From: Micrococcales bacterium
GTDB taxonomy: Bacteria > Actinomycetota > Actinomycetes > Actinomycetales > Microbacteriaceae
DNA: 50,436 nucleotides
Reading direction: 5' to 3'
Assembly: GCA_947489135.1 (NCBI GenBank)
Contig: CANLCU010000003.1
Location: 1 to 50,436 of the forward strand
The notes beneath the pieces were generated by a model that saw only the letters and a list, made by a program, of their open reading frames with translations, was not told the DNA's origin and did not search any database. Position numbers and translations under genes: made by a program. The first letter of the stretch is position 1, and each line of letters begins with the position of its first letter. Positions 6,457 through 25,352 of this stretch are shown piece by piece.

Positions 6457-6504
6457 TTTTGAGTGAACTGAACCTCACAGCATTTTCCCAAAAAGAGAAC
6501 AGTT

Positions 6505-6524
6505 ATATTCGCCTAGACGAATAT
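6505..6524. repeat. Inverted repeat (ATATTCG, 6-base gap, CGAATAT) upstream of the giant surface protein gene
   Basis: A perfect 7-bp inverted repeat lies between the SDR stop and the start at 6607, about 80 bases above the proposed transcription start. No T tract follows, so an operator is likelier than a terminator. The binding factor is unknown. Confidence 0.4.
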
Positions 6525-6593
6525 TTCATGTCAGCAATAGTTAGCAAGATACTGTAAAGCGAAACTCTCCAAGAGTCTCCAAAACCTCTAATT

Positions 6594-6599
6594 TACTCT
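6594..6599 (+). promoter_or_regulatory. -10 hexamer TACTCT, leaderless start of the giant surface protein gene
   Basis: TACTCT followed by seven bases (TGTTCCC) precedes the ATG at 6607. No purine-rich ribosome site is present. Confidence 0.45.
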
Positions 6600-6606
6600 T
6601 GTTCCC

Positions 6607-9600
6607 ATGAAGATCATCTCTTGGATCACACGTCGTTCATTAGTAGCGGTAATGGCTATTGCCACCGCTCTACTACTCCTTCTAGCCTCTGCCCAGGCAT
6701 TTGCATCCTCCCCGATGACAAGTAGTTTGTCTGTTTCATCGGTTGTAGCGGGTAACAAGGTGGATCTGATGACGCAGATACCGGCTGTTAGTGCAACGGA
6801 TCTCTCAACCCAAGAGATTATTCAGAACATTGATCCGCTAAAGGTGCGGCTAACTGGTGCATCTGATGTTAAAGCTCCAGCTGGCTGGACTGTCACCTAT
6901 TCAACTGATGGAACTACTTTCTTAGCAACACCTTCTAACTGGGCTCAAGTTGTAAAGGTTAAAGCAACTGGAACTGTTAATTCAAGTGGAGTTACTGGAG
7001 ATGGAAAGCAACTGTTCTCAACCACAGCAACGTCCCCAGGAACTTTGACCACAGTTTCGGGAGCAATTAGATCTGGAGGAGATGGTTTTAGCACTTCTTT
7101 TGATAGCAGAGGTTATGCATACAACACCTACCACCGAGGACTTGTGAATGGCTCTATTGACTGTAGAAACATCATCGATGGAACCTTCTGTTCAGCTGCT
7201 TGGCCTTTCAATATGGCAACTCATGGATTTAGCTCAAACATTGCATCTACCCAGTTCTTTGATGAAGTAAACAAACACATCTGGATTGGCAACGCTGACT
7301 CAACTCAAGGAACTGGCTTTGTTTGTGTTGATGTTTCTGACGTTAAAGTTCCAGAACTTTGTGGGGGATCTAAGGCGACCGCCTTCAAACTCATCCAAGC
7401 CAGAACAGGAGCTACCTCAACTAGCGTCTTCAACATTATTGCGGCGGAAGGCAAGATTTACGCTTGGGACATTGCGGTACCTAGAATCCTATGTCTTGAC
7501 TACCTTGCAAATGATGGCATGAGTCAGACCTGTACATCTCCTGCCTTGACTGGTCTTTCCGGAACCACTCCAACTGGTATTGCTAACGCTTGGCCTAACA
7601 TCATGACTAACCTAAACCTTGCCTTCGGCAATGTGTACGGTCAGTACGGAAGTTACGCGGTTTGTTTCAATGCATCAACTCAAGCCCTATGTCCAGGATG
7701 GACTGGCTACAACCAGCTTCTAGGTTCTACTGCATCTAACGTTGCAATGTACTTGCAGCCAAATGCTGCAGGACAGATTGCTGGTGTTTGTTTCACAAAC
7801 GACAACAAGTGTTTTGCTGCCGATGGAACTAGATTCAATGGAAACAACACTGTCCAGGCTGCAATTACAAGCATCGCAACCGGTAGATTCCAAAATTCAA
7901 CTGAGACAGTTGGTAGCAAGTTCTTGATTGCTAACCAATTCAACACAAACTCTTCTGTTTACTGTTACGACTATGCAACTAATGCTGGCTGTGCCAACTG
8001 GCCAGCTTCAACATCAGTGACTGGTATGGGTCAGATGAGAATGCTTTCTGGCGTTGACTGGAAGGTTTACACCATTGAGTCAGATCCTAGAAACAGCGAC
8101 TGTCTATGGACTAACGGTGACTCTGGAGTTTTGGGCCAGGTAACAATTTCTACTGCAACCTTTGGATGTCAGATTGATTTGCCGACAGCAACCTTCAAGC
8201 AAGCAGAACTCGGCCAGAGCCTTGCCTGTGATGGCGTATCTGGAGCAGGCTATGAAAAGTTCACCCTTGGTGGTCTTGTAAGAGGAACTGATTACACCTC
8301 TGCAAGTTTGACCATCAAGAAAGCTAACGGTTCAGTTCTTGTCTCTGGCGGTCAGACTTGGAGCGGAGTAGCTTTCAATGCTCAGGACTTTGTAGATCTA
8401 AGTAGCATTTCCATGGCTGACATTGGCACAGGAGCTACCTTCAACGTTTCCTTCGTTGGCAAGAACAACAACAAGTCTTCAACTGGAACTCTTCTTATGG
8501 AGAGTAGTTCTGCTCAGCTTTGTCTATCACTGACAGTAAACGTAATCTGTCCTGCAACCACCTTGGTTGGAACAGTAGATACTGCTTACGTAAGCTTCGA
8601 AGCAACTGGAAAGACAACAAGTTCAACAAGCCAGGTGACAAACTACACTGTCACATCTTCTGACCTAACCGTTGCTCCACCAGCTCCTTCTGCTTGTGGA
8701 TTCCTACTTACCGCCCAAGTGGGTCGAGGGCAGCCATCACAAGCCTTCCCTGCCAATGCACCTGTAGTTGTCGGTGCGACAGCTATTCTTGCTGACTCTT
8801 CTGGCACCACACTCAACGATGCTCAAGGGCAGCCAATAACTGCTGTGTCAGATGAATCAGGTGTTCTAAGTTTTGGATACGTAAAGCCTGGTACTTACAA
8901 AGTTAAGTTCACAGACTTCCCTCTAGTAAATGGCACTGGAGCTGGTGACATTGTTTCTACCTACATTGCTCCATATGGTTTCGTTACTGGTCAGATTGAA
9001 CGAGACACTGCAGTTAACTTCGCAGCTATCAAGACACCGCTTGCAACACCTTCATTCACTGGTGCTACAGGGACACCGACGATTGTAAAAGCTCTTTACA
9101 TCATGCGAGCAAGTGGAACTAACGATGTAGTTGCGATAAAGACTGGATCTGCAACGTTGATCGACGTGGTTGCTAACGACACACCTACTACTACTGCATC
9201 TTTCGCATTGAGTTGGCTAAAGATTTGTGCTGCAGGAACTACTTCAGGTTGTAACTTAGACACCCTGACAGTTGCAAACAAAGGTACCTTCACAGTGGAA
9301 ATAGGTTTAATCAAATTTACTCCAGTCGCAGGCTTCTCAGGTGTGGTTGATGACATCACCTATTCAATCAAGGACAACTACGCAGGCACGCCTACTATCA
9401 CCGCGAGACTTACAGCAACTGTCGTCCCTGCTCCTACCCCAGCACCTGACACTCTAAGCGGTAACACCCTTGCCCCAATCACGGTGGATGTTACTTCAAA
9501 TGATTCCGTAGCTGCTGGAGCAACACTAAACAAGGCAAGCGTGAAGCTTTGTGCAAGCGGAACAACAACTAACTGTGCACAAACAAGCGTTCTAATCACC

Positions 9601-12600
9601 GGTAAGGGAACCTACTCAGTGAACAACCTAGGTGTTGTTACCTTTACCCCAGTTGATGGTTTTGTTGGCCCAGTGACAGCTTTGACTTACTCAATCCAAG
9701 ACACTGCTGGAAACACTGTAACCAGCACAGTAACTGCAACAGTAACCAACACTCCTCCAAGACTGACTACTCCTGCGTTTGCTACAGCGAAGCAAGGTAT
9801 CCAAGCTACATACACTCAAAGCATCACTCAAGGAACAGGAATAATTCCTGCCACCGGTGGTTGGGCAGTTGTGGGATCAGTGCCACCAGGAATGACATTC
9901 AGCGTTGATACCGGTGCCATATCTGGTGTTCCGACGGCTCCTGGAACTTATGAGTTCACAGTCACCGTTACTGATGCAAATGGTCTTAGCTCTTCAAAGG
10001 TTGAGTCAATTACAGTTGCCACACCTCCACTAATCACAACAAGTCCATTGACATATAAGTTCTATAAGGATGTTGCAAATAACATTCCTGCTACTGCAAC
10101 TGCTGGAACAGGAACTATTGCTGCAACAGGTGCATGGAGTGCTACTGGACTACCTGCAGGGCTAAGCATCAATACAGCTACTGGTGCAATCTCTGGAACA
10201 GCAACAACAACCGGAACATACACAGTTACTCAAAAGGTAATTGACTCAAATGATCTGTTTGACACTGAAGATATCACCATCAAGGTAGTTGCTAAACCAG
10301 TTATCACTACCCCTGCCCTACCTGGTTTTGAGCTCAACAAGGCCATCACACCAGTTGAGCAAACAAAGACAGTTGGTTCTGCTCTACTTCCTGGAACTAA
10401 TGCTTGGTCGATTGTTGCAGGAACTCTGCCTAATGGTGTGAGCCTAAACCCGAACACTGGAGAGATCACCGGTACACCTACTCAGTCGGGCACCTTCCCA
10501 ATCACAGTCAAGTTGATTGATGAGGATGGAGAGTTCTCTCAACAGGTCCAAACAATCAACGTCGGCGTTCCTCCGCTAATCACAACCACACCACTCACAC
10601 ACAAGCTGTACGTTGGTGTGGCTGCAAACCTACCAAGCACTGCTACTGCTGGAACTGGTGCTCTACAAGCTAGTGGTTGGACTGCTACAGGTCTACCTAC
10701 TGGCATGAGTATCAACCCTGCTTCAGGTGCAATCAGTGGCACCCCAAGTGCTACTGGAACCTTCGAAGTAATTCAGAAGGTTACTGACGTGAACAACCTG
10801 TTTGATGTTGAGACAATCAACGTAACAGTTGTTGCTAAGCCAGTGATCACTACAACTGTTCCACTACCTAAGTTGGTCTTGAACGCAGTTGCTACGCCTA
10901 TCACTCAAACAAAGACTGCTGGTTCTGCAGCTATTCCAGCTACAGGTGCCTGGTCAATCGCATCTGGATCACTTCCAGCTGGTTTGACACTAAACCCAGA
11001 TACAGGAGCTATCTCAGGTACTCCTACCGTTGCAGGTAGCTTCCCAATTACTGTGAAGCTAACTGATGCTGATGGTGAGTTTGCAACCAAGGAAGAAACT
11101 GTTGAAGTTATTGCTCCACCAGTTATCACCACTTCACCGACTGCTAGAACACTAAACATCAGTGTTCTTGGAAACATTGCTAACACAGTCACAGTTGGTA
11201 GCGCAAACATTTCACCTTTCAATGGTTGGACTGCAACTGGATTACCTCAGGGTCTAAACATAAATGGCATCACTGGCGTTATCTCAGGAACTCCAACCGC
11301 TCTGGGCTCTTACCCAGTAACTGTTAAAGCTACCGACCTTAATGGACTATTCGATGAAGAAGTTCTAACTATTACTATCGTCAATGGTCCGGTTATCACT
11401 ACTACCCCAACTAGCTACACATTTGGTGTTGGTAACGATCTGAAGTTCATTGCTGATGACTTCTTTGCAGGTAACTCTGTTCTAAGTAGTTCAAGAGAAA
11501 TCGTTAACACTGCAACTAAGGGTTCAGCAGATATTCGTACTACAGCTGGTTGGTCTGCTGTTGGTCTACCTGCGGGTCTAACAATCAATCCTGACACTGG
11601 AAAGATCTCAGGGGCTGCGACAACCGTTGGTGTTTACCCGGTTGATGTGAAGGTAACTGACACTGCTGGATTCTTCTCAACCAAGACCCTAACCATCAAC
11701 ATTGTTCAGGGACCAAAGAACACCACTCCTCGTGTCTACAGCTATGAACTAGACATCAAGAAAAAAATCGGAATCAAGGTCTATGACGTCAAACAAACAT
11801 GGACTCTTGGCTCTGCTGAACTAGCTCGTGGTGTTCCGTTCTTCATCCAAGGATCTAAGCCATCTCCGGTATCTGGAGTGAGCATTGTCAGCGGTGAAAT
11901 CACAATATTGCCTTACCTGTTCCAAGCACCAGGTAAAGAAAAGTATGGTGCTTACACTCTCAAGACATTGATCCTAGATAGAAATGGTGCTTACGATTTA
12001 GCCACCTTCACTATCAACCTTGTGAAGCCTGGATCAAACCTCACAACACTTCCATTGCCAGTTGGTATTACTGATGGCATGCAGATGACTGCTTCTACCT
12101 ATCCATTGGCTGGAACTAGTTCAGCGAAGCTACCTGTTACCTACACATCTTCAACACCGAAGGTATGTACTGTTGACTCAGCTAAGAAGACCATGAAGAT
12201 GGTTAATGAAGGTACCTGTACCATCACTGCTTCAAGTGGAACTGGAGCTAAGTTATCTAAGGCAGCACAAAGCTTTACGATAACTAAGCTTCCTCAGACA
12301 GTCAGTATTGTTGCCCCTGGTCAACTAATTCCAGGTGGACTACTAACTGCTCCAATGCCAACTGATGACCCTAATGGTTTCAAGTTGTATGCAAATGCAA
12401 CCTCTGGCCTCACTCCTACATACGAATCACTTGACCCAAACATCTGTTCCATTGATGTCAATGGTCTTGTGATCTGGGATGCTGATTTAACCATTACTCC
12501 TCGAGTCGAATCAGACTTCTCTTGTCGTGTGAAGGTTAGTCAGCCAGGAAACACTACCTACTCTGCAGCTCCTCCGCAGACAATTACCTTGGTAGCAACT

Positions 12601-13272
12601 CACGTTGAACCTCCTGCTCCTGAAGGTGGAGTTGCTAAGGAACCTGCTCAATCAGCTAGCCTTCCAGCAGCCGGTGGCACTACACCGCTACTAGGTGGAA
12701 CTGGATTCAAGGTGATAGTAGATAGCAAGAAGAAGACAGTGACTGTTCAGCCAATGTCTAAGGGACGTTGGATTGGTCCTATCTATGCAGATATCACTAT
12801 CAAGCACCTACCGAAGGGATCAGCAACCCCTTACGTTCAAACCTGCAAGAGAAACTACTTCGGTATCGCTATCTACGACTCCAAGAAGGCTATGGTTACT
12901 CCTCCTCTAGGTGGAGACAACATGGTTGTTCCTGAGCTTCCTACACACAAGGCAGCGGTTACTGCTCTGATTAAGCAGTATCAGGATATGACCGGTAAGT
13001 TCGCAACAACCAAGGTTGTGAAAGGCAAGAAGGTTGTCTCCCCTGGTTACCTTGACTGGAAGCCTCTATTCGGTCAAACAACCTGTGTGCTTGATGCAAA
13101 GACATACGCTGCTTGGAAGTCTGGAATTCAGATTGAAGCTAAGGCCACAGTAACTCGTGACCGTCGCTGGCCAACCACTTACGCCAAGTACAAGTCATAC
13201 GACTGGAAGAACAAGAGCAACAACGGTTTGATCTTCCCAACAGTTGTTGAGTGGAATCTAAAGATCGGATAG
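6607..13272 (+). CDS. Giant secreted multidomain surface protein (Cys-pair repeats, cadherin/CshA-like and putative Ig repeats)
   Basis: This 2221-residue exported protein is probably an adhesin or cell-surface structural protein. Residues 1-34 are a signal peptide (MKIISWITRR, long hydrophobic core, AFA). About residues 180-530 contain roughly seven short units that each carry a cysteine pair and an aromatic/acidic signature (for example YCYDYATNAGCANWP), compatible with a beta propeller. A prealbumin-like segment follows near 705-790 (VSDESGVLSFGYVKPGTYKVKF). Two cadherin/CshA-like repeats lie at about 850-1055 (GTFTVEIGLIKFTPVAGFSG). Then come about eight putative Ig (He_PIG) repeats up to roughly 1700, each with GLPAGL-NP-TG-ISGTP. 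The C-terminus holds Ig-like Cys-containing segments and a basic domain. There is no LPxTG, C-terminal membrane helix or S-layer homology motif. It is a single gene closed by a terminator. Confidence 0.88.
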   Translation: MKIISWITRRSLVAVMAIATALLLLLASAQAFASSPMTSSLSVSSVVAGNKVDLMTQIPAVSATDLSTQEIIQNIDPLKVRLTGASDVKAPAGWTVTYSTDGTTFLATPSNWAQVVKVKATGTVNSSGVTGDGKQLFSTTATSPGTLTTVSGAIRSGGDGFSTSFDSRGYAYNTYHRGLVNGSIDCRNIIDGTFCSAAWPFNMATHGFSSNIASTQFFDEVNKHIWIGNADSTQGTGFVCVDVSDVKVPELCGGSKATAFKLIQARTGATSTSVFNIIAAEGKIYAWDIAVPRILCLDYLANDGMSQTCTSPALTGLSGTTPTGIANAWPNIMTNLNLAFGNVYGQYGSYAVCFNASTQALCPGWTGYNQLLGSTASNVAMYLQPNAAGQIAGVCFTNDNKCFAADGTRFNGNNTVQAAITSIATGRFQNSTETVGSKFLIANQFNTNSSVYCYDYATNAGCANWPASTSVTGMGQMRMLSGVDWKVYTIESDPRNSDCLWTNGDSGVLGQVTISTATFGCQIDLPTATFKQAELGQSLACDGVSGAGYEKFTLGGLVRGTDYTSASLTIKKANGSVLVSGGQTWSGVAFNAQDFVDLSSISMADIGTGATFNVSFVGKNNNKSSTGTLLMESSSAQLCLSLTVNVICPATTLVGTVDTAYVSFEATGKTTSSTSQVTNYTVTSSDLTVAPPAPSACGFLLTAQVGRGQPSQAFPANAPVVVGATAILADSSGTTLNDAQGQPITAVSDESGVLSFGYVKPGTYKVKFTDFPLVNGTGAGDIVSTYIAPYGFVTGQIERDTAVNFAAIKTPLATPSFTGATGTPTIVKALYIMRASGTNDVVAIKTGSATLIDVVANDTPTTTASFALSWLKICAAGTTSGCNLDTLTVANKGTFTVEIGLIKFTPVAGFSGVVDDITYSIKDNYAGTPTITARLTATVVPAPTPAPDTLSGNTLAPITVDVTSNDSVAAGATLNKASVKLCASGTTTNCAQTSVLITGKGTYSVNNLGVVTFTPVDGFVGPVTALTYSIQDTAGNTVTSTVTATVTNTPPRLTTPAFATAKQGIQATYTQSITQGTGIIPATGGWAVVGSVPPGMTFSVDTGAISGVPTAPGTYEFTVTVTDANGLSSSKVESITVATPPLITTSPLTYKFYKDVANNIPATATAGTGTIAATGAWSATGLPAGLSINTATGAISGTATTTGTYTVTQKVIDSNDLFDTEDITIKVVAKPVITTPALPGFELNKAITPVEQTKTVGSALLPGTNAWSIVAGTLPNGVSLNPNTGEITGTPTQSGTFPITVKLIDEDGEFSQQVQTINVGVPPLITTTPLTHKLYVGVAANLPSTATAGTGALQASGWTATGLPTGMSINPASGAISGTPSATGTFEVIQKVTDVNNLFDVETINVTVVAKPVITTTVPLPKLVLNAVATPITQTKTAGSAAIPATGAWSIASGSLPAGLTLNPDTGAISGTPTVAGSFPITVKLTDADGEFATKEETVEVIAPPVITTSPTARTLNISVLGNIANTVTVGSANISPFNGWTATGLPQGLNINGITGVISGTPTALGSYPVTVKATDLNGLFDEEVLTITIVNGPVITTTPTSYTFGVGNDLKFIADDFFAGNSVLSSSREIVNTATKGSADIRTTAGWSAVGLPAGLTINPDTGKISGAATTVGVYPVDVKVTDTAGFFSTKTLTINIVQGPKNTTPRVYSYELDIKKKIGIKVYDVKQTWTLGSAELARGVPFFIQGSKPSPVSGVSIVSGEITILPYLFQAPGKEKYGAYTLKTLILDRNGAYDLATFTINLVKPGSNLTTLPLPVGITDGMQMTASTYPLAGTSSAKLPVTYTSSTPKVCTVDSAKKTMKMVNEGTCTITASSGTGAKLSKAAQSFTITKLPQTVSIVAPGQLIPGGLLTAPMPTDDPNGFKLYANATSGLTPTYESLDPNICSIDVNGLVIWDADLTITPRVESDFSCRVKVSQPGNTTYSAAPPQTITLVATHVEPPAPEGGVAKEPAQSASLPAAGGTTPLLGGTGFKVIVDSKKKTVTVQPMSKGRWIGPIYADITIKHLPKGSATPYVQTCKRNYFGIAIYDSKKAMVTPPLGGDNMVVPELPTHKAAVTALIKQYQDMTGKFATTKVVKGKKVVSPGYLDWKPLFGQTTCVLDAKTYAAWKSGIQIEAKATVTRDRRWPTTYAKYKSYDWKNKSNNGLIFPTVVEWNLKIG

Positions 13273-14914: not shown

Positions 14915-15796
14915 TTAGCCGAAGCGGCCTGTTACGTAGTCTTGGGTTCTTGGGTCATCAGGGTTCTGGAAGATCTTGGTAGTATCCCCCTGCTCAACGA
15001 TCATTCCTGGAGTTCCAGCTTCAGCTAGGAAGAAGGCACACTGGTCAGAAACGCGGGCAGCTTGTTGCATGTTGTGGGTAACGATAACGATTGTTACCTC
15101 GCTAGCTAGCTCCAAGATGGTCTCTTCAATGCGGAAGGTTGATGTTGGGTCTAGAGCTGAACAAGGCTCATCCATAAGCAATACACGAGGCATTACAGAA
15201 AGCGAACGAGCAATACAAAGTCTTTGCTGCTGACCACCGGAAAGACCTCCACCAGGGGCGTCTAGGCGGTCTTTAACCTCTTTCCAAAGCCCTGCTTTGG
15301 TTAGAGACTGCTCAACAATGTCATCAAATTCGCTCTTGCTCTTCTTGATCGAAGTCAGGCGAAGACCTGAGATTACGTTCTCGTAGATGCTCATTGCTGG
15401 GAATGGGTTTGGCTTCTGGAAAACCATACCGATTTCACGTCTAGCATCTGTTACACGCTTAGTTGGGTCATAGATGTCCACTCCATCAAGCAAAACTTGA
15501 CCAGCCATTGAAGCACTAGGAACAAGCTCGTGCATTCTGTTTAGAACGCGAAGGAAAGTTGACTTACCGCAACCAGAAGGACCAATAAGAGCGGTTACCT
15601 TTCCTGGCTGCATGGTTAGGTTGATTCGATCTAGAACTTTACGCTGACCAAACCAGGCAGATACATCCTCTCCGGTGATGGTAGCTAGGCTTGCTGATCC
15701 TGCACTCTTCTTTGATGTGCGGTTCATGTTGATTGGCTTTACTGCAACTCTAGAGTCGCTGGTGGTTGGCGACTTAGGTCCTGTTGCTGGGCTCAT
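14915..15796 (-). CDS. pstB: Phosphate ABC transporter ATP-binding protein PstB
   Basis: The ATPase of the high-affinity phosphate importer, acting at the inner face of the membrane with PstC and PstA. Walker [10 protein letters not shown] is near residue 92, the signature LSGGQQQRL near 195, Walker B VLLMDEP near 215, and the switch His lies in [10 protein letters not shown]. PstB hallmarks DGVDIYDP and FQKPNPFP are present. Length is 293 residues. About 40 N-terminal residues (Ser/Thr/Lys rich) exceed the usual 250-260. A strong ribosome site (AAGGAAAGG) supports the ATG at 15796. It is the last gene of the pst cluster, separated from pstA by four other genes rather than following it directly. 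Confidence 0.96.
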
Positions 15797-15820: not shown

Positions 15821-16798
15821 CTAAAGCAAATTCGGTAGTAGTTGAATAATCTGAGATGCCCAGACGCCGCCGAAGAAGACAATCGCTGGAGCTCCTGCGA
15901 TCCATGCCTGCGCTCTGCCCCACTTACGTGAAAGCCAGCTGATAGCAAACATGAGAACAATCAGGAACTGTGTCATAAAGATAAGTGGTGTTACAGCATC
16001 CATGTTTGATGCCAGTGCTGCTTCATTATCTGCAATAGCTCTATTTGGAATTACTCGGTTAGGTGTTGGCTTCGGTGCACCATCAAGAGTTGCTTCAACG
16101 CGAAGAACATCGGTTGCGAAAAATGGCAAACCTGATGCAGAAACAAGAGTCAATCTGCCCATTGATGAGCCAAGACCGTTAGTGGCTTCATCGCCAGCTC
16201 TTCTGATCTTTGAAACTGTGTAGGAGGCTTCGCCTTGACCGGTAATAGTTTCGATCTTGTCGCCTACTTCTAGTTCACTCAATCTAGAAAAGACTCCGCT
16301 ATAAGCCGACTGTCTTCCATAAATAACTGAAATGCCAGCTTGACCAGGAAGAACTGTGTCCCTGCGGTGACCAGGACCATCAACTGTTACTGCTGAAGAT
16401 GTTCCTTCGAGAACTATTTCATTGACGTCAATCTTCTGGATCTTAAGAACCGCAACAGGTGTTCCCTGTTCGATTAGGTAGCCATCGGAATCTACCTGTC
16501 CAACAGGTGCTGTTCCGTTAGCTAGTTCAAATCTGAATGTTTCATTTGCTTTGAATTGTGCACTCTCATACTGCACGTGGGAAACAATAAACAATTGCCC
16601 CAAGAAAACTAATGCTGCAGCTCCAAGAGCTACAAGTGCTCTACCTGCAAAGAATCTGACGTTTTCAGGCTTTGGTGTAGGCACCATGTTGTCGATGAAC
16701 TGTGAACTTTCGGTTGCCTGCTCAAGCTTTGGTAAAGATAACTTAGGTATAGCGAGCTTAGGAATGAGGGAACTCTTAAGAAGTTTCACTCCACGCAC
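15821..16798 (-). CDS. Sortase-like membrane protein lacking catalytic His and Cys (pseudosortase)
   Basis: A 325-residue protein with a class D/E-like sortase fold. A cytoplasmic N-terminus with an IPKL/LPKL repeat leads to a membrane helix at 52-75. The sortase core spans about 112-238: VAVLKIQKIDV, EGTSSAV, GPGHRRDTVLPGQAG, L-ELEVGDKIET. Two more helices lie at about 273-317. The GH of the catalytic His is GR (Arg162), and the TLVTC of the catalytic Cys is TLVSAS (Ala221). Only the downstream Arg233 (VLRVEA) remains, so transpeptidase activity is not expected. It sits between a secreted binding-protein-like gene and pstB, so it may scaffold or tether the surface proteins of this locus (inference). 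The start is uncertain: GTG at 16798 or GTG nine bases later. Confidence 0.8.
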   Translation of the reverse strand: MRGVKLLKSSLIPKLAIPKLSLPKLEQATESSQFIDNMVPTPKPENVRFFAGRALVALGAAALVFLGQLFIVSHVQYESAQFKANETFRFELANGTAPVGQVDSDGYLIEQGTPVAVLKIQKIDVNEIVLEGTSSAVTVDGPGHRRDTVLPGQAGISVIYGRQSAYSGVFSRLSELEVGDKIETITGQGEASYTVSKIRRAGDEATNGLGSSMGRLTLVSASGLPFFATDVLRVEATLDGAPKPTPNRVIPNRAIADNEAALASNMDAVTPLIFMTQFLIVLMFAISWLSRKWGRAQAWIAGAPAIVFFGGVWASQIIQLLPNLL

Positions 16799-16827: not shown

Positions 16828-16859
16828 TATCGTGGCCCCCTTGTTAGGGGGCCACGATA
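16828..16859 (-). terminator. Very strong hairpin between the 734-residue gene and the pseudosortase gene
   Basis: A perfect 13-bp GC-rich stem (TATCGTGGCCCCC and its complement) has a 6-base loop. It lies just after the stop of 16882-19086. No clean U tract follows in the minus direction, so it may be a partial terminator or a 3' mRNA-stabilising hairpin that sets different expression within the cluster. Confidence 0.6.
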
Positions 16860-16881: not shown

Positions 16882-19086
16882 TTACTTTACGACCTTGAAG
16901 GTCTTTGTTGTGGTTGATGCTGCTACTTCTGCGCTACCACCGTAGAACACCTTGACGGTGTATGTGCCTACAGTTGTGATCTTCGCGAACTTTAGAGTCG
17001 CTGTACCAGTTGCTGATAGCTTCACAAGAGCTGATGACACCTGGACAGGAACCTTCTTTGAGTTGTAAACAACTGCAAATACAGTACCTGTAGCTCCTAC
17101 GTTGCTAGTGACTTTTCCAGCCTTGATGGTTACTGAAACAGTTGGAAGTGCTGATGTCTTGTAAGACGCACCAACTGTGATCAGTGAGTAGCTTGTGTTC
17201 TTTAGAGCTACCGCTACTGCAGCAGAGGTTCTGCTGGTTTCCGCAGTTGCTGTGTTTGTAGGAACAAACTCACCAACTAGGTTGTAGCTCACTGCTTCAC
17301 CATTTGCCTGGTCGATTGTTACAGTCGCGGTTCCACCAGTTACAGCCACAGTCTTCAAGATTGCTCCTGAGAAGTTTGTGTTGTAAACATTTAGGTTACC
17401 GTTCTGACCACCAGTGATGGTTGCTGTGAAGCTAGCTGATAGACCGTTAGCTGCAACTGTTGCTGCACCGAATGAAACGCTAGTTGCAGTCTTTACTGCA
17501 GCTGGAGCAGCCAAGGTGATTGTAGCTGTAGTTGTGCTTGAGCTTACGTCAACACCTGCAAGAACAGGTACGAACTGAGCTGTAACAGTCTTTGTCAGTG
17601 CTGCAGCAGTTGTGTTTGTAACTGTGATGTCAACTTCTGTTGCACCCTTCGCTACTACACCTGATGCAACTTCTGCCTGGTTTGCAGTTCCAAAGTCAGA
17701 GAACAAAGTTACTGTTCCACCCTGGTTACCGTTTGATGCAACTGTTGCTTTTACAGTTCCGGTTGATGCGCCTGCTGCAACTACTGGAGTACCAAGAGTT
17801 ACTGTGCTTGCTGATGGTGCGTAAACACGGTTAGCTGCTGTGATGTTTCCACAAACAGTTGCGTTTCCGCCTTCAGTTTCACCTGTAGCTGCATCAGTTC
17901 CAGTGTAAGAAAGAAGGCCGTAACCGAACTTCTGAATTACTGTCTGTGACTGGCAAACTAGAGAGTTTGTTCCACGGAATGCACGAGTGTACGCGTTTTC
18001 TTCATCTGCGTTGATCAGGGCTGTTGGAACGATGTTGTAAACAGCACGCTTGATTGCAGACCATGTTGGAGCAGTCGCGTAAACGCCATCTGTAACAACT
18101 GTTGCCTCTAGTCCACCCATTGAACGAAGGATTGCACCAGCAGTACGCTTTGGAGCAACACCGTTAGTCTGAGCAACCCACTGTGAGATTGAGAAACCAA
18201 CAAGTGCGTATGGGTCTGTAGCAACAGCTGTTCCATCGTGCTCCTGAACAGATAGACCAGTTGGTGTAACGTCCTTTGCAGGTACTGACTGGTTGGTGAT
18301 TTCAGTTTCAGAAATCTTTACCTGACCAATCCAGAATGAACGAGTTCCTGATCCTGCCTGAGGAATGTAAGCACGGATTGTGTTAGATACCTCACCTGCA
18401 GCTGGTGTATAAGAAGGAGCTGCTAACTTGATAAATGCACCGGTTGCCGCGTCCTCAATAACCTGGGTAATGTTTCCACGGTAGATGTTGATTAGAGAAA
18501 CGTTGTCTGTAACAGCAAGTGTTCCTAGAGGAATATCTGAAGGAATCTTTGTGATGTTCAAAGGAGCTGTTGCATAAGTCATGTTGTCCTGGGCGAAAGG
18601 AACATAAGTCACAACACCGTTAGCGACCGCTCCGCTAGGACCTGATGATGAACGAGCGTAGTGGAACTTTCCAGCAAGCTGTGCAGTGGTTGGGCTTACT
18701 GCAGTTCTTGCCTTGCCAAGATCGTCTGGAGCAATAGCAACTGAACCTGAGTTGATCTGGCCGATTGCGATACGAAGAGCATCGCGACCTGCACCTGAAC
18801 CATTTGCACGTGGAATAGCAATTCCATCTGCTGAAACTACTACGTCAGCTGAACCGATTGCCTTGTAGCTTGCAAGCTTTAGTCTGGTGTCAGCTACGCT
18901 GACGTTTCCAAGAGCTAATGAAATGCCATCCATGACGTCCATGGTTGTGTCAGAGCCTAGACCTACTAGCTCTGCATACTTGTTTACTGAAACTGGATCA
19001 GCCATTACCGGCATTGCGGTTCCTGCTGCGATAACAGCTGCACCGCTAAGGGCGACTGTTACTTGAGCGAACAACTTGTTCTTCAA
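16882..19086 (-). CDS. Secreted PstS-like substrate-binding protein with Ig-like C-terminal repeats
   Basis: A 734-residue secreted protein. Residues 1-29 are a signal peptide (core VTVALSGAAVIAAGTAMPVMA). About 36-425 resemble a periplasmic-binding-protein type 2 (PstS-like) fold: LVGLGSDTTMDVMDG, then IPRANGSGAGRDALRIA, IAPDDLGKA, FVPFAQDNM-type and GSGTRSFW segments that would line a phosphate-type pocket. About 430-735 are beta-rich Ig-like (Big_3-type) repeats ending GTYTVKVFYGGS. Unlike its two upstream relatives it has no membrane anchor. The start is a TTG preceded by AAAGGA; no better ATG is nearby. It lies 134 bases after the 794-residue gene, so it may have its own promoter, and is followed by a very stable hairpin. 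The ligand is unproven; phosphate is inferred from the locus. Confidence 0.82.
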   Translation of the reverse strand: MKNKLFAQVTVALSGAAVIAAGTAMPVMADPVSVNKYAELVGLGSDTTMDVMDGISLALGNVSVADTRLKLASYKAIGSADVVVSADGIAIPRANGSGAGRDALRIAIGQINSGSVAIAPDDLGKARTAVSPTTAQLAGKFHYARSSSGPSGAVANGVVTYVPFAQDNMTYATAPLNITKIPSDIPLGTLAVTDNVSLINIYRGNITQVIEDAATGAFIKLAAPSYTPAAGEVSNTIRAYIPQAGSGTRSFWIGQVKISETEITNQSVPAKDVTPTGLSVQEHDGTAVATDPYALVGFSISQWVAQTNGVAPKRTAGAILRSMGGLEATVVTDGVYATAPTWSAIKRAVYNIVPTALINADEENAYTRAFRGTNSLVCQSQTVIQKFGYGLLSYTGTDAATGETEGGNATVCGNITAANRVYAPSASTVTLGTPVVAAGASTGTVKATVASNGNQGGTVTLFSDFGTANQAEVASGVVAKGATEVDITVTNTTAAALTKTVTAQFVPVLAGVDVSSSTTTATITLAAPAAVKTATSVSFGAATVAANGLSASFTATITGGQNGNLNVYNTNFSGAILKTVAVTGGTATVTIDQANGEAVSYNLVGEFVPTNTATAETSRTSAAVAVALKNTSYSLITVGASYKTSALPTVSVTIKAGKVTSNVGATGTVFAVVYNSKKVPVQVSSALVKLSATGTATLKFAKITTVGTYTVKVFYGGSAEVAASTTTKTFKVVK

Positions 19087-19220: not shown

Positions 19221-21605
19221 TTACGCTTGCTTTTCCTTGCGTTTTCTGGCTCTAGCAAGCAGGAACTGGCCTACAACCAGTCCAGGGAAACCAAAGATGA
19301 GAGATGCCAAGACAACCGATGAACTCACTGAGCTACCCTCAGACATTGTCTTGAAGGAGTCGGCTCTTGGTCCTGAGCCTGGGTCAACAGGATCTACTGG
19401 GTCAATCGGTCCAGGTTCTGGGTCAACCGGTTCTGTTGGGGTTGGAGTTGGCTTTTCTTCTTCAGGAAGATTGCTAGGGCAATCCTTGGCAACTGTGCTG
19501 CTTGTTAGAGCCTTAGCGGCTGCCTTTGCCTTGCTTGAGAGGTTTGCCTGAAGAGGTACGTATCCGTAAGGGAGCATGCCTTGAGCTTCACCAGTTATCT
19601 GACCAGGACCAGCTGCATAGTTCAACATAGAGCTGTATTCGGAGAGAGCTTTAGGTGTCTGTGTGCAGACGTTTACTACAGCATATGTAAGTGAAGTCCA
19701 AGGATAAGCTGTGCCCTTTACTGACTTGCCATCGTTGTAGAGAATTCCTGTACTTGCATCTACTGGCATAGCAGACACTGCAGCGTTCATAGTGCTAGCA
19801 GTAGGTTTGCTCTCTTGGCCAGTTGAGCTAACCAAAGTCGCGACACCTAGCCCATATCTTTCAGCTGCTGGAAGGTCGGTGATTGCCAGCATGAATCTCT
19901 GTCCAATTGGTTGAGCTCCACCTGAGGCGAAAGCAGCAGGAATCTTGTTTGGATCCCAAATCGTTTTACTCTTTGAATCTCCACGTCTAGCTGCAGCTGC
20001 AGCATCCAGCATGTCATGAGAGTAAGGTCTCATGTCAAGAGTTGAAAAGCCTGGCTCAGGGGTACTTGAGTTCGGTCTGTATGTTGAAAGATCCGCCTTA
20101 GGGAAAGACTCGATTTCAGTGTCTGTTGCTAGCTCAAGGGTTGAGTAGAACTTGTTTAGTTTCATCCCCCATTGGTCAGAAGTTCCTTTGAGAAATGAGC
20201 TAGCTTTAGGGTCATTTTGTAGCCAACGCCATACAAGTGCAGTTGAGTCAGATGAACCCAGTGCAACCAGTAGACCACCAGGTTCAAGACCTCTTTGGAA
20301 GTACTCGAAGTCAGGGTTTAGTTGGATGAATTCTGGGTCTGCCACCAAGCTTCTCGGGTTGTCTTTTACGTGCTCTTGAGTGTTTCCACCAGGAACATCG
20401 TTTCGGTAAGACTGAGTTAGAAGTTTTGCGACAAGTCGTGCATTTAGTTTTAGATCAGTGACGAGAGCACCGTTTTGTGAAACTAGTGGAGAGTCGGACT
20501 TGAAGTTCTTTTCAATGTTGAATGCCACTACTACTGCAGAGTTAGCAACCGGTGCGTAGACGAGCTGATTCTTGCCCCTAAGTTCTTCATCTATCGGGTC
20601 AGCGATAAAAGCTAGACCTGATGAACCAAAGAGAGATCCGGTGATCTGTCTTCTTGCTTCACCATCACCGATTTGAGAGTAACCGAAGGTTGCAATGTCT
20701 TTACAAAGCGATGGCTGCCAGGAATAGAAGGCAGCTGAAATCATCTCGGTACCGACTACTCTTCTTTCAGAGTTTCCAAGAGCACAGGAAACGGTTAGCG
20801 GAGAGAAGCTCAAAGGAATCTGCACGCGGTTTGCCCAGTGGGAGGCAGATAGCGGTGATCCACTTATTCTTTCACCTTCAAGAATTCTTGTTCCATTAGC
20901 TCGTAGCTCACCTCGAGGAATGACTACTAGCCAACAATCTCTAGGACCTGTCGCAGTCTGAGCTCCACAGCCTAGATGAGGTGCTTCAAGTGCTGTCTGA
21001 ACTTCAAATACAGCCTCTCCTCCGCCGCTCACACCTGTAGGTGCAGCAGAGAATTCGTTGCTTGTCTCATTTGAGAAGTACTTGATGAAGTTGTAGGTGG
21101 TTTCGCCACCAACTGTCTTGAAAGGTACTCTGTACGACTTTAGGAACGGCTGGTTTACAGGAGGTGGAATCAAGAATGAAGTGTTGTAGGCCTGGTTAGG
21201 GTCTTCACCTTTCATAAGGTCTCGGTTAGCAGTGAATGAACCCATTAGGTTTTCAGTGGCTGTAATTGGAGAACCCCACTGACACTGCTGAGGAGTTGGA
21301 CCGGTTTCGTCTCCCCAACACTGCATGATTTGAACGTAGTTGCTAGCCAACTCTCCAGGCATAGTTCGGTCGAGACCTGACCAGCTGACTGTCACACCCT
21401 GGTTTGAAAGGTTGCGGGTTTGCGAAACAGTCACTTGAAAGTTTTCAAACTCATCATAGAAGTGACTGGTCTGATCTCGTGTGTCAGAAAGCCAAGTCTT
21501 TGATACTTCACTACCGGTTTGAGCAGTCGAAGCAGAAGGTGCGACCAGAAAAGTCAAACCAATTGCTGAGACTAAAAGAAATCTCAAAACCGTTCTAAGA
21601 TTCAT
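19221..21605 (-). CDS. Surface substrate-binding-like protein with Pro-rich stalk and C-terminal membrane anchor
   Basis: A 794-residue protein. It has a signal peptide at 1-29 (AQT cleavage region) and a large extracytoplasmic domain with six or more cysteines. Binding-protein-like segments are seen (SAVVVAFNIE, LNARLVAKLLTQSYRNDVPG, LVALGSSDSTALVWRWL). A Pro/Asp/Glu stalk of the PTPTEPVDPEPGPIDP type follows near 715-745. The C-terminus is a membrane helix (about 763-785) followed by RARKRKEKQA. This resembles a wall-anchored protein but has no LPxTG. Its ATG overlaps the stop of pstS by one base (TGATG), so it is translationally coupled to the transporter. I do not recognise a named family beyond PstS-like binding proteins. 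A second extracellular phosphate-related binding or transfer role is inferred. Confidence 0.8.
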   Translation of the reverse strand: MNLRTVLRFLLVSAIGLTFLVAPSASTAQTGSEVSKTWLSDTRDQTSHFYDEFENFQVTVSQTRNLSNQGVTVSWSGLDRTMPGELASNYVQIMQCWGDETGPTPQQCQWGSPITATENLMGSFTANRDLMKGEDPNQAYNTSFLIPPPVNQPFLKSYRVPFKTVGGETTYNFIKYFSNETSNEFSAAPTGVSGGGEAVFEVQTALEAPHLGCGAQTATGPRDCWLVVIPRGELRANGTRILEGERISGSPLSASHWANRVQIPLSFSPLTVSCALGNSERRVVGTEMISAAFYSWQPSLCKDIATFGYSQIGDGEARRQITGSLFGSSGLAFIADPIDEELRGKNQLVYAPVANSAVVVAFNIEKNFKSDSPLVSQNGALVTDLKLNARLVAKLLTQSYRNDVPGGNTQEHVKDNPRSLVADPEFIQLNPDFEYFQRGLEPGGLLVALGSSDSTALVWRWLQNDPKASSFLKGTSDQWGMKLNKFYSTLELATDTEIESFPKADLSTYRPNSSTPEPGFSTLDMRPYSHDMLDAAAAARRGDSKSKTIWDPNKIPAAFASGGAQPIGQRFMLAITDLPAAERYGLGVATLVSSTGQESKPTASTMNAAVSAMPVDASTGILYNDGKSVKGTAYPWTSLTYAVVNVCTQTPKALSEYSSMLNYAAGPGQITGEAQGMLPYGYVPLQANLSSKAKAAAKALTSSTVAKDCPSNLPEEEKPTPTPTEPVDPEPGPIDPVDPVDPGSGPRADSFKTMSEGSSVSSSVVLASLIFGFPGLVVGQFLLARARKRKEKQA

Positions 21606-23218
21606 CAGTTCTGCTTACGTCTTCTTAATACAGATAAGACTGGCACAGCAAGTAAGAGTGCGATGAAGAGAACTATTAGGAAAATGATTTGTGCTTGAGC
21701 AAAAGCTCTTCCAGATGGATTCGGTGGGTTAATTGCCTCTGCAGACACTGCTTGGCATATGCCAGTGTCGTTGTCACAGAATCCTGGACCAACTATTCCG
21801 TTATCAACGATTCCGCCGTTATCGACATAACCGCCGCCACCAGTTCCTGGGTTAGTTCCAGGATCTGTTCCGGGATCAGTCCCAGGGTCAGTACCCGGAT
21901 CGGTTCCTGGGTCTGTGCCAGGGTCTGTGCCTGGATCAGTTCCTGGGTCAGCACCTGGGTCAGTTCCGGTGTAGCCCTTCTTATCTGCAGCTGGAGGCAT
22001 TGGTGCATTCTTGGCTAGCAGGTTTGTTCCGTCAGCAGAGAAGGTTGGGTTGTTACATTTAGCAACATCCTTGTTCTTCGCACTTACTCCAGGGATCTTC
22101 TTGACCTGTTCAAGACCTGCCTTCACCAAGTTGATTGGTAGCGGTGAGTAACCGAGCACTTCAGCCTGCTGCTGTCCTTCACAAAGGTAGTAGTAAGCAA
22201 AGTCTCCGAGGGTTGCACCTTTGGCTGCAGTGAAAGATCCGGAAACTGCAGTTGGAATAATCAAGTACGAATAGCTAGACAATGGATAAGACCTTGGGTC
22301 TTTAGAGCTGTAAACACCAGTCAAAATCTGAGTCAAGTAAGAGTTACCTGGACGAGTATCAATCTTTGCTTCCAAAAGAGCAACAGCCACGTTAGAAGCT
22401 GTTGGCAAAACATAGTGATCTGACTTATTCAAAAGCTTCAGTACAGGGAAGCCTGTTTTCAACGCATAGGAATACTCAACGTAAGTAATGGTTCCTTCGT
22501 TAGCGTTCTGAGAAACGTAACCTGAAACACCTTGGGAACCAGGCTGAGAAACATATCCCTTTCCAGAAACTACAGGGTAGTTAGAGGTAAGGCCGCAAGG
22601 AGTGCTTCTTCCAGCAAGCTTGCAGTAGTCATCCCAAATCTTGGTGTGCTCATCTGCCATCCATGAAGTGAACTGAGCCGTAGATCCGGAACCGTCAGAA
22701 CGAACAACCGGAACAATCTTTCGCTTAGGTAGAGATACGCCTGGGTTCTCTGCTGCAATAGCAGGGTCATCCCAAGATGTAATTACTCCAGTGAAAACCT
22801 TGGTTAGGTTTTCACCTGACATCTTCAGGTTGGTAAATCTCTTGCCACCAATCTTTAGGTTGTACATCAAAGCTGTACCACCAGCAACTAGAGGAATGTA
22901 AGCAAATGCTCTAGAAGGAAGAGCGTCAACTACTGATCCATCTTTCAATCCATAAGGAATTTCAGAGGAAGCAAAGTCAACTGTTCCAGCCTTGAACTGG
23001 TTTCTACCATCAGATGAACCTGTGCTGGCGTAGTTCACACGCATTCCATACTGAACTACGTTTCGACGCCACTGGTCAATAGCGTTTGCAGACCAAGAGG
23101 ATCCAGCACCGTTAACCGGAACATACTCAGCTGCTTCTGCAGGTGAAGCAGAAAAACCAAAGAGGATTGCTGGAGTCAGCAGTGCTGATACCAATCGAGT
23201 TTTCAGACTAAGTCTCAT
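21605..23218 (-). CDS. pstS: Phosphate-binding protein PstS with PGTD-repeat stalk and C-terminal membrane anchor
   Basis: A 537-residue PstS. It has a signal peptide (1-29, AEA) and a phosphate-binding fold at about 30-385: NGAGSSWSANAIDQWR, ASTGSSDGRNQF, VDFASSEIPY, and RSDGSGSTAQFTSW near 165, the classical phosphate-loop motif. A stalk of ten PGTD-type tetrapeptides follows near 420-460. The C-terminus is a membrane helix at about 508-528 ending RRRKQN. There is no lipobox Cys, so attachment is by the C-terminal helix rather than a lipid, with the stalk able to project the binding domain into or through the wall. It overlaps pstA by one base (TAATG) and the next gene by one base. Confidence 0.93.
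   Translation of the reverse strand: MRLSLKTRLVSALLTPAILFGFSASPAEAAEYVPVNGAGSSWSANAIDQWRRNVVQYGMRVNYASTGSSDGRNQFKAGTVDFASSEIPYGLKDGSVVDALPSRAFAYIPLVAGGTALMYNLKIGGKRFTNLKMSGENLTKVFTGVITSWDDPAIAAENPGVSLPKRKIVPVVRSDGSGSTAQFTSWMADEHTKIWDDYCKLAGRSTPCGLTSNYPVVSGKGYVSQPGSQGVSGYVSQNANEGTITYVEYSYALKTGFPVLKLLNKSDHYVLPTASNVAVALLEAKIDTRPGNSYLTQILTGVYSSKDPRSYPLSSYSYLIIPTAVSGSFTAAKGATLGDFAYYYLCEGQQQAEVLGYSPLPINLVKAGLEQVKKIPGVSAKNKDVAKCNNPTFSADGTNLLAKNAPMPPAADKKGYTGTDPGADPGTDPGTDPGTDPGTDPGTDPGTDPGTDPGTNPGTGGGGYVDNGGIVDNGIVGPGFCDNDTGICQAVSAEAINPPNPSGRAFAQAQIIFLIVLFIALLLAVPVLSVLRRRKQN
21843..21962 (-). repeat. Ten 12-bp units encoding the PGTD stalk of PstS
   Basis: Ten in-frame 12-bp units code for Pro-Gly-Thr/Ala/Asn-Asp repeats. 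The amino-acid pattern is kept while third positions differ between almost all units, so the protein repeat is selected and not a fresh slippage product. Confidence 0.9.
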
Positions 23219-24324
23219 TATGCGACCTTCTTCTTGGTTAGCTTTCTGATGTTCTTTACTAAGTTGCCGAAAACGTTCTTATCTGAACCTAAGATTCGAG
23301 CAAGCATAAAGAGGATTAGAACTAGGAACATTAGAACTGCAGCAGTTCCAAAGCCTCGAGCAATCATTGTTGGTTCTGGTGATTTTACGAACTGGAAGAT
23401 TGCTAGTGGCAGAGAAACCATAGGACCTTCAGTTGGGTTTAGATTCAAGCTCGCTGTAAATCCTGAAGTTAGAAGAACAGGTGAAGTCTCACCGATACCT
23501 CTAGCAGTAGCCAAGATGATTGCTGTGGTTAGACCTGATCTTGCTGTTGGAAGAGTAACCATCCAAGCAGTTCTCCAAGCACCTGCACCTAGACCTAGAG
23601 AAGCTTCTTTCAAAGTTCCTGGAACGATACGAAGAACAACATCGGATGCTCTAATCATGATTGGAAGCATCATCACGCTGATCGCAAGAGCAGCAGCAAA
23701 CCCAGACTTCTGAACACCAAGCAACAAGATTGCTGTCGCGTAGATAAACAAACCAGCAACGATGGAAGGCAGAGCAGTCATAGCCTCAACCATGGTTCTA
23801 ACAAAGCGGCTGTATTTTCCTGGAATCTCATTTAGGAAGACAGCTGTAATCAAACCAAGTGGAATGGTGATAGCTAGAGCAATTGCGATCTGGATAAGAG
23901 AACCCAGAATAGAGTGCAGGATTCCACCAGAACTTAGCGGGTCTAGAGGACCAGCAAGGCTCATGTCTTGAGTGAAGAAGTTCAGATAAGGAAGAGCTTC
24001 AAATCCTCTAGAGATTGTGAAGACCACAATAAAAACCAGAGCGGAAAAGATAATCACAGCAGCTGAGCGGATGATTACCGAAGCAACTCTGTCCTTTACT
24101 CCCTCACGGTCATCGTCTATGGCTGTAATTAGAGCGAAGAAGACAATGAACAGTACGTAAGCGATAAGTACGAAAGTTAGCACTCCATTTAGTGGAGCAA
24201 TAGAGAACAAGAAACCTGTAGCAGCAACTGCAGAAGTTGCGGCAGTTAGCGTAGTAAGAAGATCACGGATTCTAATTCCATGAAGTTGACGCTTCTGCTC
24301 TTCCACGATGTTTTGAGTAGTCAT
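23218..24324 (-). CDS. pstA: Phosphate ABC transporter permease PstA
   Basis: An inner-membrane permease of the PstSCAB importer, 368 residues. Two hydrophobic helices (about 30-80) and a charged loop precede the usual PstA body, so it is about 70 residues longer than typical. The ABC permease coupling loop is EAALGLGA-type here: LKEASLGLGAGAWRTAWMVTLPTARSGL (Gly, Pro and Ala positions conserved) near residue 235. The core region has LPSIVAGLFIY, as in PstA/PstC. It overlaps pstC and pstS by one base each (TAATG), a tightly coupled unit. Confidence 0.95.
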   Translation of the reverse strand: MTTQNIVEEQKRQLHGIRIRDLLTTLTAATSAVAATGFLFSIAPLNGVLTFVLIAYVLFIVFFALITAIDDDREGVKDRVASVIIRSAAVIIFSALVFIVVFTISRGFEALPYLNFFTQDMSLAGPLDPLSSGGILHSILGSLIQIAIALAITIPLGLITAVFLNEIPGKYSRFVRTMVEAMTALPSIVAGLFIYATAILLLGVQKSGFAAALAISVMMLPIMIRASDVVLRIVPGTLKEASLGLGAGAWRTAWMVTLPTARSGLTTAIILATARGIGETSPVLLTSGFTASLNLNPTEGPMVSLPLAIFQFVKSPEPTMIARGFGTAAVLMFLVLILFMLARILGSDKNVFGNLVKNIRKLTKKKVA

Positions 24325-25352
24325 TAGCTGCTCGCTCCTGATCTTGAACGGGCAACGATAGACGAAGCAGCGAAGTTGACAATCAAAGTCATGATGAACA
24401 GAGCTAGACCTGCAGCCATTAGAGCTGACATACCCATCTGAGTTGCCTCACCGTATCTCAAAGCAATAAGGCTGGATACTGAGTTAGCACCGTTCTCAAG
24501 AATTCTTGGCTGAACTACGAACACCGGAGAGATGATCATGTAGACAGCAATGGTTTCACCAAGTGCTCTACCTAGCCCCAGCATCGTTGCTCCGATAATT
24601 CCACCCTTACCGAATGAAAGGACAACGTTTCGAACCATTCCCCAACGAGTAGAACCTAAACCAAGTGCTGCTTCTCTTTCTCCAATAGGTGCCTGGGAGA
24701 AAACTTCTCGCATAACTGAAGTAACAATCGGAGTAATCATTAGCCCAACAACGATTCCAGCAATCAAGCTTGAAGATGTGAAAACTGTATTGCTAGTTAG
24801 CGGATCTGATGGATCACTTCCTTGAACTGAAAGGAAAGGAATCCAACCAAAGTTTTGTGATAGCCATTTAGCGACCGGGGTTACTTCGTTCTGAAGGAAG
24901 AAGAAACCCCAAAGACCAAAGACAACTGAAGGAATAGCTGCCATTAGGTCAACCATTGTGATTAGCAGACGCTTAATTCTTCTTGGTGCGTACTCACTTA
25001 TATAAAGTGCTGTTCCAAGAGAGAAAGGAACAGCAACCACAATTGCGATAATCGCAATGATTACCGTTCCCGCGATTACCGCTGCAATACCGAAGTTTCC
25101 TGAATCTGGCTCCCAAGCCTGAGTTGTAAAGAAACTAAAACCAACTGAACCTAAAGCTTCGGATGCTCTGAGGGTTAGGAATAAACCAACTAGACCCATG
25201 ATGACAAGTACCGAGCTTCCGGCACTTCGCATTACCCCTCTAAAGATGCGATCTTGAAAGTCCCAAACATACTTGAGTTGACGGGGTTTTTGGGTATCTG
25301 CGGCCATCGCCAAGGCATCTTTTGACAGAGACTGTTGGGTTTTAGTGGCCAT
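24324..25352 (-). CDS. pstC: Phosphate ABC transporter permease PstC
   Basis: Permease partner of PstA, 342 residues with about six membrane helices and first gene of the pst cluster. PstC features include SSVLVIMGLVGLFLTL, SEYAPRRIKRLLI, AAIPSVVFGLWGFFFL near residue 145, and a coupling loop (REAALGLGSTRW-MVRNVVL) near 225. The C-terminus is ANSVSSLIALRYGEA plus a last helix. The start ATG at 25352 lies six bases after a GATAAT hexamer, so the operon transcript is probably leaderless. Direct GTTCA-like repeats just upstream could be PhoP sites. Confidence 0.95.
   Translation of the reverse strand: MATKTQQSLSKDALAMAADTQKPRQLKYVWDFQDRIFRGVMRSAGSSVLVIMGLVGLFLTLRASEALGSVGFSFFTTQAWEPDSGNFGIAAVIAGTVIIAIIAIVVAVPFSLGTALYISEYAPRRIKRLLITMVDLMAAIPSVVFGLWGFFFLQNEVTPVAKWLSQNFGWIPFLSVQGSDPSDPLTSNTVFTSSSLIAGIVVGLMITPIVTSVMREVFSQAPIGEREAALGLGSTRWGMVRNVVLSFGKGGIIGATMLGLGRALGETIAVYMIISPVFVVQPRILENGANSVSSLIALRYGEATQMGMSALMAAGLALFIMTLIVNFAASSIVARSRSGASS

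Follow-up and report, generated by a model that had tools for sequence, protein, structure and literature searches.

In Actinomycetota, the phosphate-binding receptors (PstS) of the PstSCAB importer are usually lipoproteins. Classical WxL/WxLIP gene clusters contain, to our knowledge, no pst genes. Excerpts of the literature on SrtE1 of Streptomyces coelicolor (PDB 5cuw), a class E sortase, give its catalytic triad as His251, Cys320, and Arg329, and place its S3-subsite tyrosine, Tyr229, as the Tyr of the GHY motif in the beta3/beta4 loop (PMC5148588). Here we describe a gene located in a pst cluster in a 50,436-nucleotide stretch of DNA from a Micrococcales bacterium (assembly GCA_947489135.1, contig CANLCU010000003.1, positions 1 to 50,436; hereafter, the window). 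By sequence comparison and structural modeling, its product has a sortase fold, has lost the complete catalytic triad, is under purifying selection, and belongs to a family that has one origin and is closely linked with pst genes and with PstS2.

The window cluster is like the PstSCAB importer in encoding PstS, PstC, PstA, and PstB, but it differs from it in having receptors tethered by a helix, with no lipobox seen, as well as extra receptor-like proteins and the pseudosortase. The pseudosortase in turn differs from class E sortases by the loss of the triad, by an Arg in place of the GHY Tyr, and by two C-terminal membrane helices, and the tethered proteins encoded next to it are almost without sorting motifs. 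The window protein stayed below the NCBIfam cut-offs of both class E (NF033747; it scored 49.5 of 160 bits, and three relatives 57 to 79) and class D (NF033746, 38.1 of 165 bits), and it has Arg145 at the place of the S3-subsite Tyr of SrtE1. As for WxL/WxLIP clusters, the relative L085 carries WxL and WxLIP genes (5707-8376 of that locus) inside an actinobacterial pst cluster, upstream of its pseudosortase and with products above the Pfam cut-offs, and L061 encodes a WxLIP protein just above the cut-off; neither domain was found in the eight window proteins scanned. Among the papers listed by full-text searches, with most subscription papers outside them, no title or abstract beginning describes a pst-linked pseudosortase, and a word count for a review on phosphate transport in Streptomyces and relatives (PMC7866108) gives 0 occurrences of sortase.

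The protein is arranged as an N-terminal membrane helix, a predicted external sortase-fold domain (approximately residues 97-241), and two C-terminal membrane helices, ending in LLPNLL. The gene and its parts, including the positions of the former active site, are the following (n = 111 family members, defined below):

15821..16798 (-): pst-linked pseudosortase gene, an open reading frame of 325 residues with a mechanically called GTG start
16520..16669 (-): long N-terminal helix, model residues 44-93, holding the single N-terminal membrane span (model secondary structure and hydropathy of the near relative L028)
16361..16366 (-): Arg145-Arg146 of the GHRRD motif; Arg145 in 105/111 and Arg146 in 110/111 members
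16313..16315 (-): Arg162 at the place of the catalytic His; Arg in 111/111 members, His in 11/11 intact sortases
16136..16138 (-): Ala221 at the place of the catalytic Cys; Cys in 11/11 intact sortases aligned
16106..16108 (-): Val231 at the place of the catalytic Arg; Arg in 11/11 intact sortases, never Arg in the 111 members
16100..16102 (-): Arg233; Arg in 70 members, His in 20, Tyr in 17, other in 4
16076..16510 (-): sortase-fold domain, residues 97-241; structural matches cover model residues 81-241
15839..16003 (-): two C-terminal membrane helices, model residues 266-293 and 295-320 (model secondary structure)

A reading of this DNA from its sequence only (the sequence-only reading) had proposed that the protein keeps the sortase core, and this was borne out, as PF04203 of Pfam matched the 325-residue frame (2.9e-13; 50.1 bits against a cut-off of 26.6) and the model shows the sortase beta-barrel fold. 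None of the predicted viral structures searched matched it at E 0.001 or better. The two extra C-terminal helices it had singled out are present in the model and membrane-like, but they are not special to the pseudosortase. Eight intact class E-like sortases encoded outside pst loci, with His and Cys present, have C-terminal helices as well (L148, L150, L156, L164, L165, L168, L180, and L182); their C-terminal layout is that of the pseudosortase, and their ends are of the LP type (LLPANY, LLPSNF, or LLPASI, for example). By hydropathy, 5/8 of these relatives have three helices and the remaining ones (L150, L156, and L165) have two, as does the family member L028. Within 5-18 kilobases (kb) around the eight genes, BLAST found no pst genes except for weak PstB matches in four, which we took as other ATP-binding cassette (ABC) ATPases.

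To compare the former active site across relatives, we defined the family as 111 distinct frames with at least 200 bits, the window copy included. The first profile had retrieved 126 frames, and of the others 11 weaker ones were counted as ordinary sortases and 4 were duplicates. Both substitutions claimed by the sequence-only reading, Arg162 for the catalytic His and Ala221 for the catalytic Cys, held against the 11 intact sortases, and when the solved sortases 4d70 and 8t28 were aligned by profile, their Cys also fell on Ala221. In an alternative alignment register the Cys of ordinary sortases falls one column off Ala221, and there is no Cys in either register. Its third claim, that the catalytic Arg survives as Arg233, was wrong. 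It is Val231 that aligns with the catalytic Arg; Arg233 lies two residues beyond it on the same strand, at a variable position occupied by Val or Ile in intact sortases. Because Val231, and not Arg233, faces the catalytic Arg, no residue of the triad is left in the window protein according to the alignment. We also looked for a Cys/His pair elsewhere in the fold and rejected it, as residues 81 to 240 contain no Cys in any of the 111 members; a His directly follows Arg162 in 9/111 members, off the catalytic place and with no core Cys. Position 221 is Ala in 100 members, Gly in 10, and Thr in 1, while position 222 varies.

Other residues are retained throughout the family. Arg162, Arg199, Gln188, Gly223, and Asn323 are invariant (111/111), Trp299 is present in 109/111 members, and the LPN-type C-terminal motif in 110/111. 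Arg145 occupies the place of the GHY-motif Tyr, as placed by that motif in the alignment, where 10/11 intact sortases have Tyr. By alignment, Arg162 would stand in the former active site, with Arg145, Arg146, and Arg199 probably in or beside the loops that line it. Judged from these alignments, the protein is a genuine pseudosortase that would perform no transpeptidation by known sortase chemistry, in support of the proposal that it is not a transpeptidase.

The gene is under purifying selection. Against its closest relative, L028 (89% identical), the ratio of nonsynonymous to synonymous substitution rates (dN/dS) of the whole gene was 0.084, with 0.036 for the sortase core, 0.061 for the C-terminal part, and a looser 0.334 for the N-terminal 80 residues, all from a single pair with dS of about 0.9. 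In the same pair, values were lower for PstA, PstC, PstS1, and PstS2 (0.027-0.059) and higher for the secreted protein SP3 (0.169).

The association with pst genes is a property of the family. In 59 genomes, the window's own included, we found 4 orthologues with 36-40% identity, each followed by pstB. A one-genome-per-species scan yielded 263 relatives. The analysis used the best 80, which belong to Streptomycetaceae, Micromonosporaceae, Microbacteriaceae, Cellulomonadaceae, Pseudonocardiaceae, Jiangellaceae, Nocardioidaceae, and others, and they were found through patterns around GHRRD and LPGQ, which biases the frequencies of those motifs among them. Not chosen by pattern were the 30 clear members (at least 226 bits, own included) found in 396 genomes of the order, below which scores drop to 93 bits, the value of a partial match in G212 that was left out of the co-occurrence count. 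In all family members but L100 and L137 (109/111), pstB follows downstream on the same strand, with at most 578 bases between it and the pseudosortase frame. The membership in a pst locus claimed from the window is therefore conserved, and the survey of homologs finds the same losses of His and Cys in all 111 members. The family is widespread in Actinomycetota, Streptomyces included, and its genes are probably annotated as plain sortases. Within the window's genus, a clear match was found in only 4/36 genomes searched, own included and many of them incomplete, and the cluster exists in two divergent versions with separate tree positions (L003-L005, and the window with L028), which suggests transfer or repeated loss.

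Conversely, homologs with an intact triad were not seen in pst loci within the fetched flanks. For loci other than L028-L107, 63 distinct frames carry the His and Cys signatures, and in none did the flank, about 1.5 kb for most, contain pst genes (minimum BLAST scores: PstB, 250 bits; PstC and PstA, 150; PstS, 70), while 31 pst-linked frames have neither signature. Four pst-linked frames match a single pattern, His in L127 and L129 and Cys in L134 and L142, and we took these matches as lying outside the sortase domain; by alignment L127, L129, and L134 have Arg162 and no core Cys, and L142 reads GRRAGFGG and TAGGS. Six frames with neither signature have no visible pst genes. Three of them are family members by score (L137, with no pstB match; L139, at a contig edge; and L149, whose wider locus L173 does have pst genes) and three are not (L152, L160, and L207). 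No pst genes were found near L155, which has the Cys pattern alone, or near L021, a cut frame with the His pattern alone. L155 (G664) has Asp for the catalytic His (VAGDR) and keeps the Cys, and L207 (G530) lacks both signatures, with no pst genes seen.

In a tree of 92 rows, a single branch (98/92) separates 49 pst-linked pseudosortases from 43 other sortase-family rows. The five deepest or most distant pst-linked members (L144-L147 and L149) have Arg or Lys for the His and Ser, Thr, or Ala for the Cys; one of them, L147, reads GRRTTYGAPF and TTSNPEY and retains the catalytic Arg. When we searched the class of G431 for basal members (24 genomes), the high-score pst-linked form was found only in G431 itself. 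The simplest history would be that an intact polytopic class E-like sortase became part of a pst locus and then ceased to be catalytic, with His and Cys disappearing before Arg. Among the 43 other rows, L152 (G551) and L160 (G678) also lack His and Cys (AGYR or AGFR, and TTTAPS), with no pst genes seen; they form an independent line of pseudosortases related to class E, with a long Pro-rich tail.

The order of genes in the window is as described before, with the pseudosortase gene between three genes for secreted binding proteins and pstB, although two of the three products are tethered to the membrane by a C-terminal helix. The neighboring features are:

14915..15796 (-): pstB, encoding the importer ATPase, immediately downstream of the pseudosortase gene; PstB equivalog, 351.5 bits against 343.2
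16828..16859 (.): perfect 13-base-pair inverted repeat between the SP3 and pseudosortase genes
16882..19086 (-): SP3, a secreted protein of 734 residues with no membrane tail, whose relatives have a PstS-like domain
19221..21605 (-): PstS2, with an extra N-terminal domain, the PstS fold at 276-708, and then a linker and a C-terminal membrane helix
21605..23218 (-): PstS1, canonical phosphate-binding protein with an acidic repeat linker, a juxtamembrane DTG motif, and a C-terminal membrane helix; 206.4 bits against 205
23218..24324 (-): pstA, permease; 203.6 bits against 193.45
24324..25352 (-): pstC, permease; 261.7 bits against 196.45

PstS, PstC, PstA, and PstB are thus encoded in one cluster, each above its NCBIfam equivalog cut-off, and the pstC gene is the sole full pstC match in the genome bin; family membership predicts that the cluster transports phosphate.

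With simple patterns, we examined the tails of the receptors in relatives. A hydrophobic C-terminal helix followed by a basic end is present in 61/65 PstS1 and 67/71 PstS2 proteins, no lipobox was seen in either, and an LPxTG-type motif is absent from 64/65 PstS1 and 70/71 PstS2 tails. This layout would be that of a sorting signal without its cleavable motif. Just before the helix, the PstS1 tails have [DE]xDTG in 31/61 cases, against 0.7 in shuffles, and P[VIM][STAEQN] in 47/61, against 10.1, although these shuffles overstate the significance, since the patterns were chosen after inspection and the carriers are homologous. Such counts show local conservation and not binding.

These observations make it very likely that the pseudosortase is a non-catalytic, conserved protein of the Pst locus that acts with the importer in a subunit role. 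We tentatively propose a fuller statement, in which this sortase-fold subunit, itself without catalysis, belongs to a specialized Pst importer with tethered receptors, whose tails dock onto it. The protein would sit in the membrane and expose its sortase domain to the outside. Its old substrate groove, with conserved arginines and no nucleophile, would hold the juxtamembrane PstS tails without cutting them. The docked part would be the acidic DTG...PV motif, followed by the helix and then by the basic end, and two or three PstS-type receptors would be kept assembled around PstCA, by analogy with a substrate-trapped sortase turned scaffold. We favor a scaffold that holds tails because the PstS layout resembles a sorting signal, because the tail motifs are conserved, and because a class A sortase with its Cys changed to Ala (C208A) holds peptides uncut in the complexes described in excerpts of PMC9520033. 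More generally, there may possibly be a type of ABC importer in Actinomycetota with a dead sortase as a fixed subunit, whose former catalytic groove, rebuilt with invariant arginines, clasps receptor tails (or phosphate), so that a former cell-wall stapling enzyme organizes or gates the receptors at the membrane. If this is true, a family of pseudoenzymes of sortase descent would have a job in nutrient import, and what a sortase groove without Cys can do, and how helix-tethered phosphate receptors are held at the surface, would become testable.

Several points weigh against tail docking. The catalytic Arg, which grips the peptide backbone in the class A C208A complexes (same excerpts of PMC9520033), is gone, so that binding resembling that of a sorting signal would need other contacts, and an anion would fit the conserved arginines just as well as a peptide. 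DTG is missing from 24/61 PstS1 tails, the DTG motif appears in 11/67 PstS2 tails against 4.0 in shuffles, distant members have it only in part, and the post hoc choice of patterns counts in the same direction. In the five distant members the gene is inside the pst cluster with pstB not adjoining, and only 1/5 keeps Arg145.

The same arginines could instead form a site that binds phosphate or an anionic envelope polymer, with the helices signaling to PstCAB or to regulators. We consider this anion-sensing subunit unlikely: the conservation of Arg162 and Arg199 (111/111), Arg146 (110/111), and Arg145 (105/111) and the location in a phosphate locus speak for it, but the cluster already has PstS-type receptors, Arg145 is lost in 4/5 distant members, and we know of no anion-binding or sensing role for a sortase fold, which counts against it. 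Also rather improbable is a transporter subunit that works through its helices, with three helices, a cytosolic WG..W loop, and the LPN tail contacting PstC, PstA, or PstB and the sortase domain serving as a spacer or stabilizer. The LPN-type tail (110/111), Trp299 (109/111), and the closeness of pstB (109/111) would fit such contacts; however, the external core evolves slowest (dN/dS of 0.036 against 0.061 for the C-terminal part in one pair) and has most of the invariant residues, and intact relatives outside pst loci carry the same C-terminal helices.

A helper that presents Pst proteins to a separate active sortase for wall anchoring is very unlikely. Intact sortases do accompany the pseudosortase in some carriers (G029 and G445, for instance), but it is the only sortase match in the window genome (79% complete), and all but one tail of each receptor type lack an LPxTG-type motif. 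The survival of a different chemistry, that of an unusual hydrolase or transferase, is hardly to be expected; the former site does keep several invariant residues, but with Ala, Gly, or Thr at 221, a varying position 222, and no core Cys, there is no nucleophile at the place of the Cys. Finally, a decayed or misaligned ordinary sortase, for which the class E score far under its cut-off (49.5 of 160) could be invoked, was rejected, and we give it practically no chance given the purifying selection, the single branch of the tree, the same losses in 111 members, and the stop-free frames of the family matches.

Regarding the rest of the cluster, the 66 bases around the inverted repeat fold with -35.6 kcal/mol (z -7.9), and the repeat may terminate or trim the transcript arriving from upstream, in which case the pseudosortase and pstB genes would be expressed apart. 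The window copy of SP3 gave no Pfam match; Ig-like repeats are present in this part of the cluster. Beside the pst cluster lies a gene for a protein of the alpha-amylase family (25502-28510; Pfam, 181.7 bits), and in two relatives the C-terminal part of an amylase is found beyond pstB (L003, 42-671, above the Pfam cut-off; L005, 26-679, below it). On the other side, 6607-13272 (+) encodes a secreted-looking protein of 2221 residues with seven putative Ig domains and CshA-type repeats.
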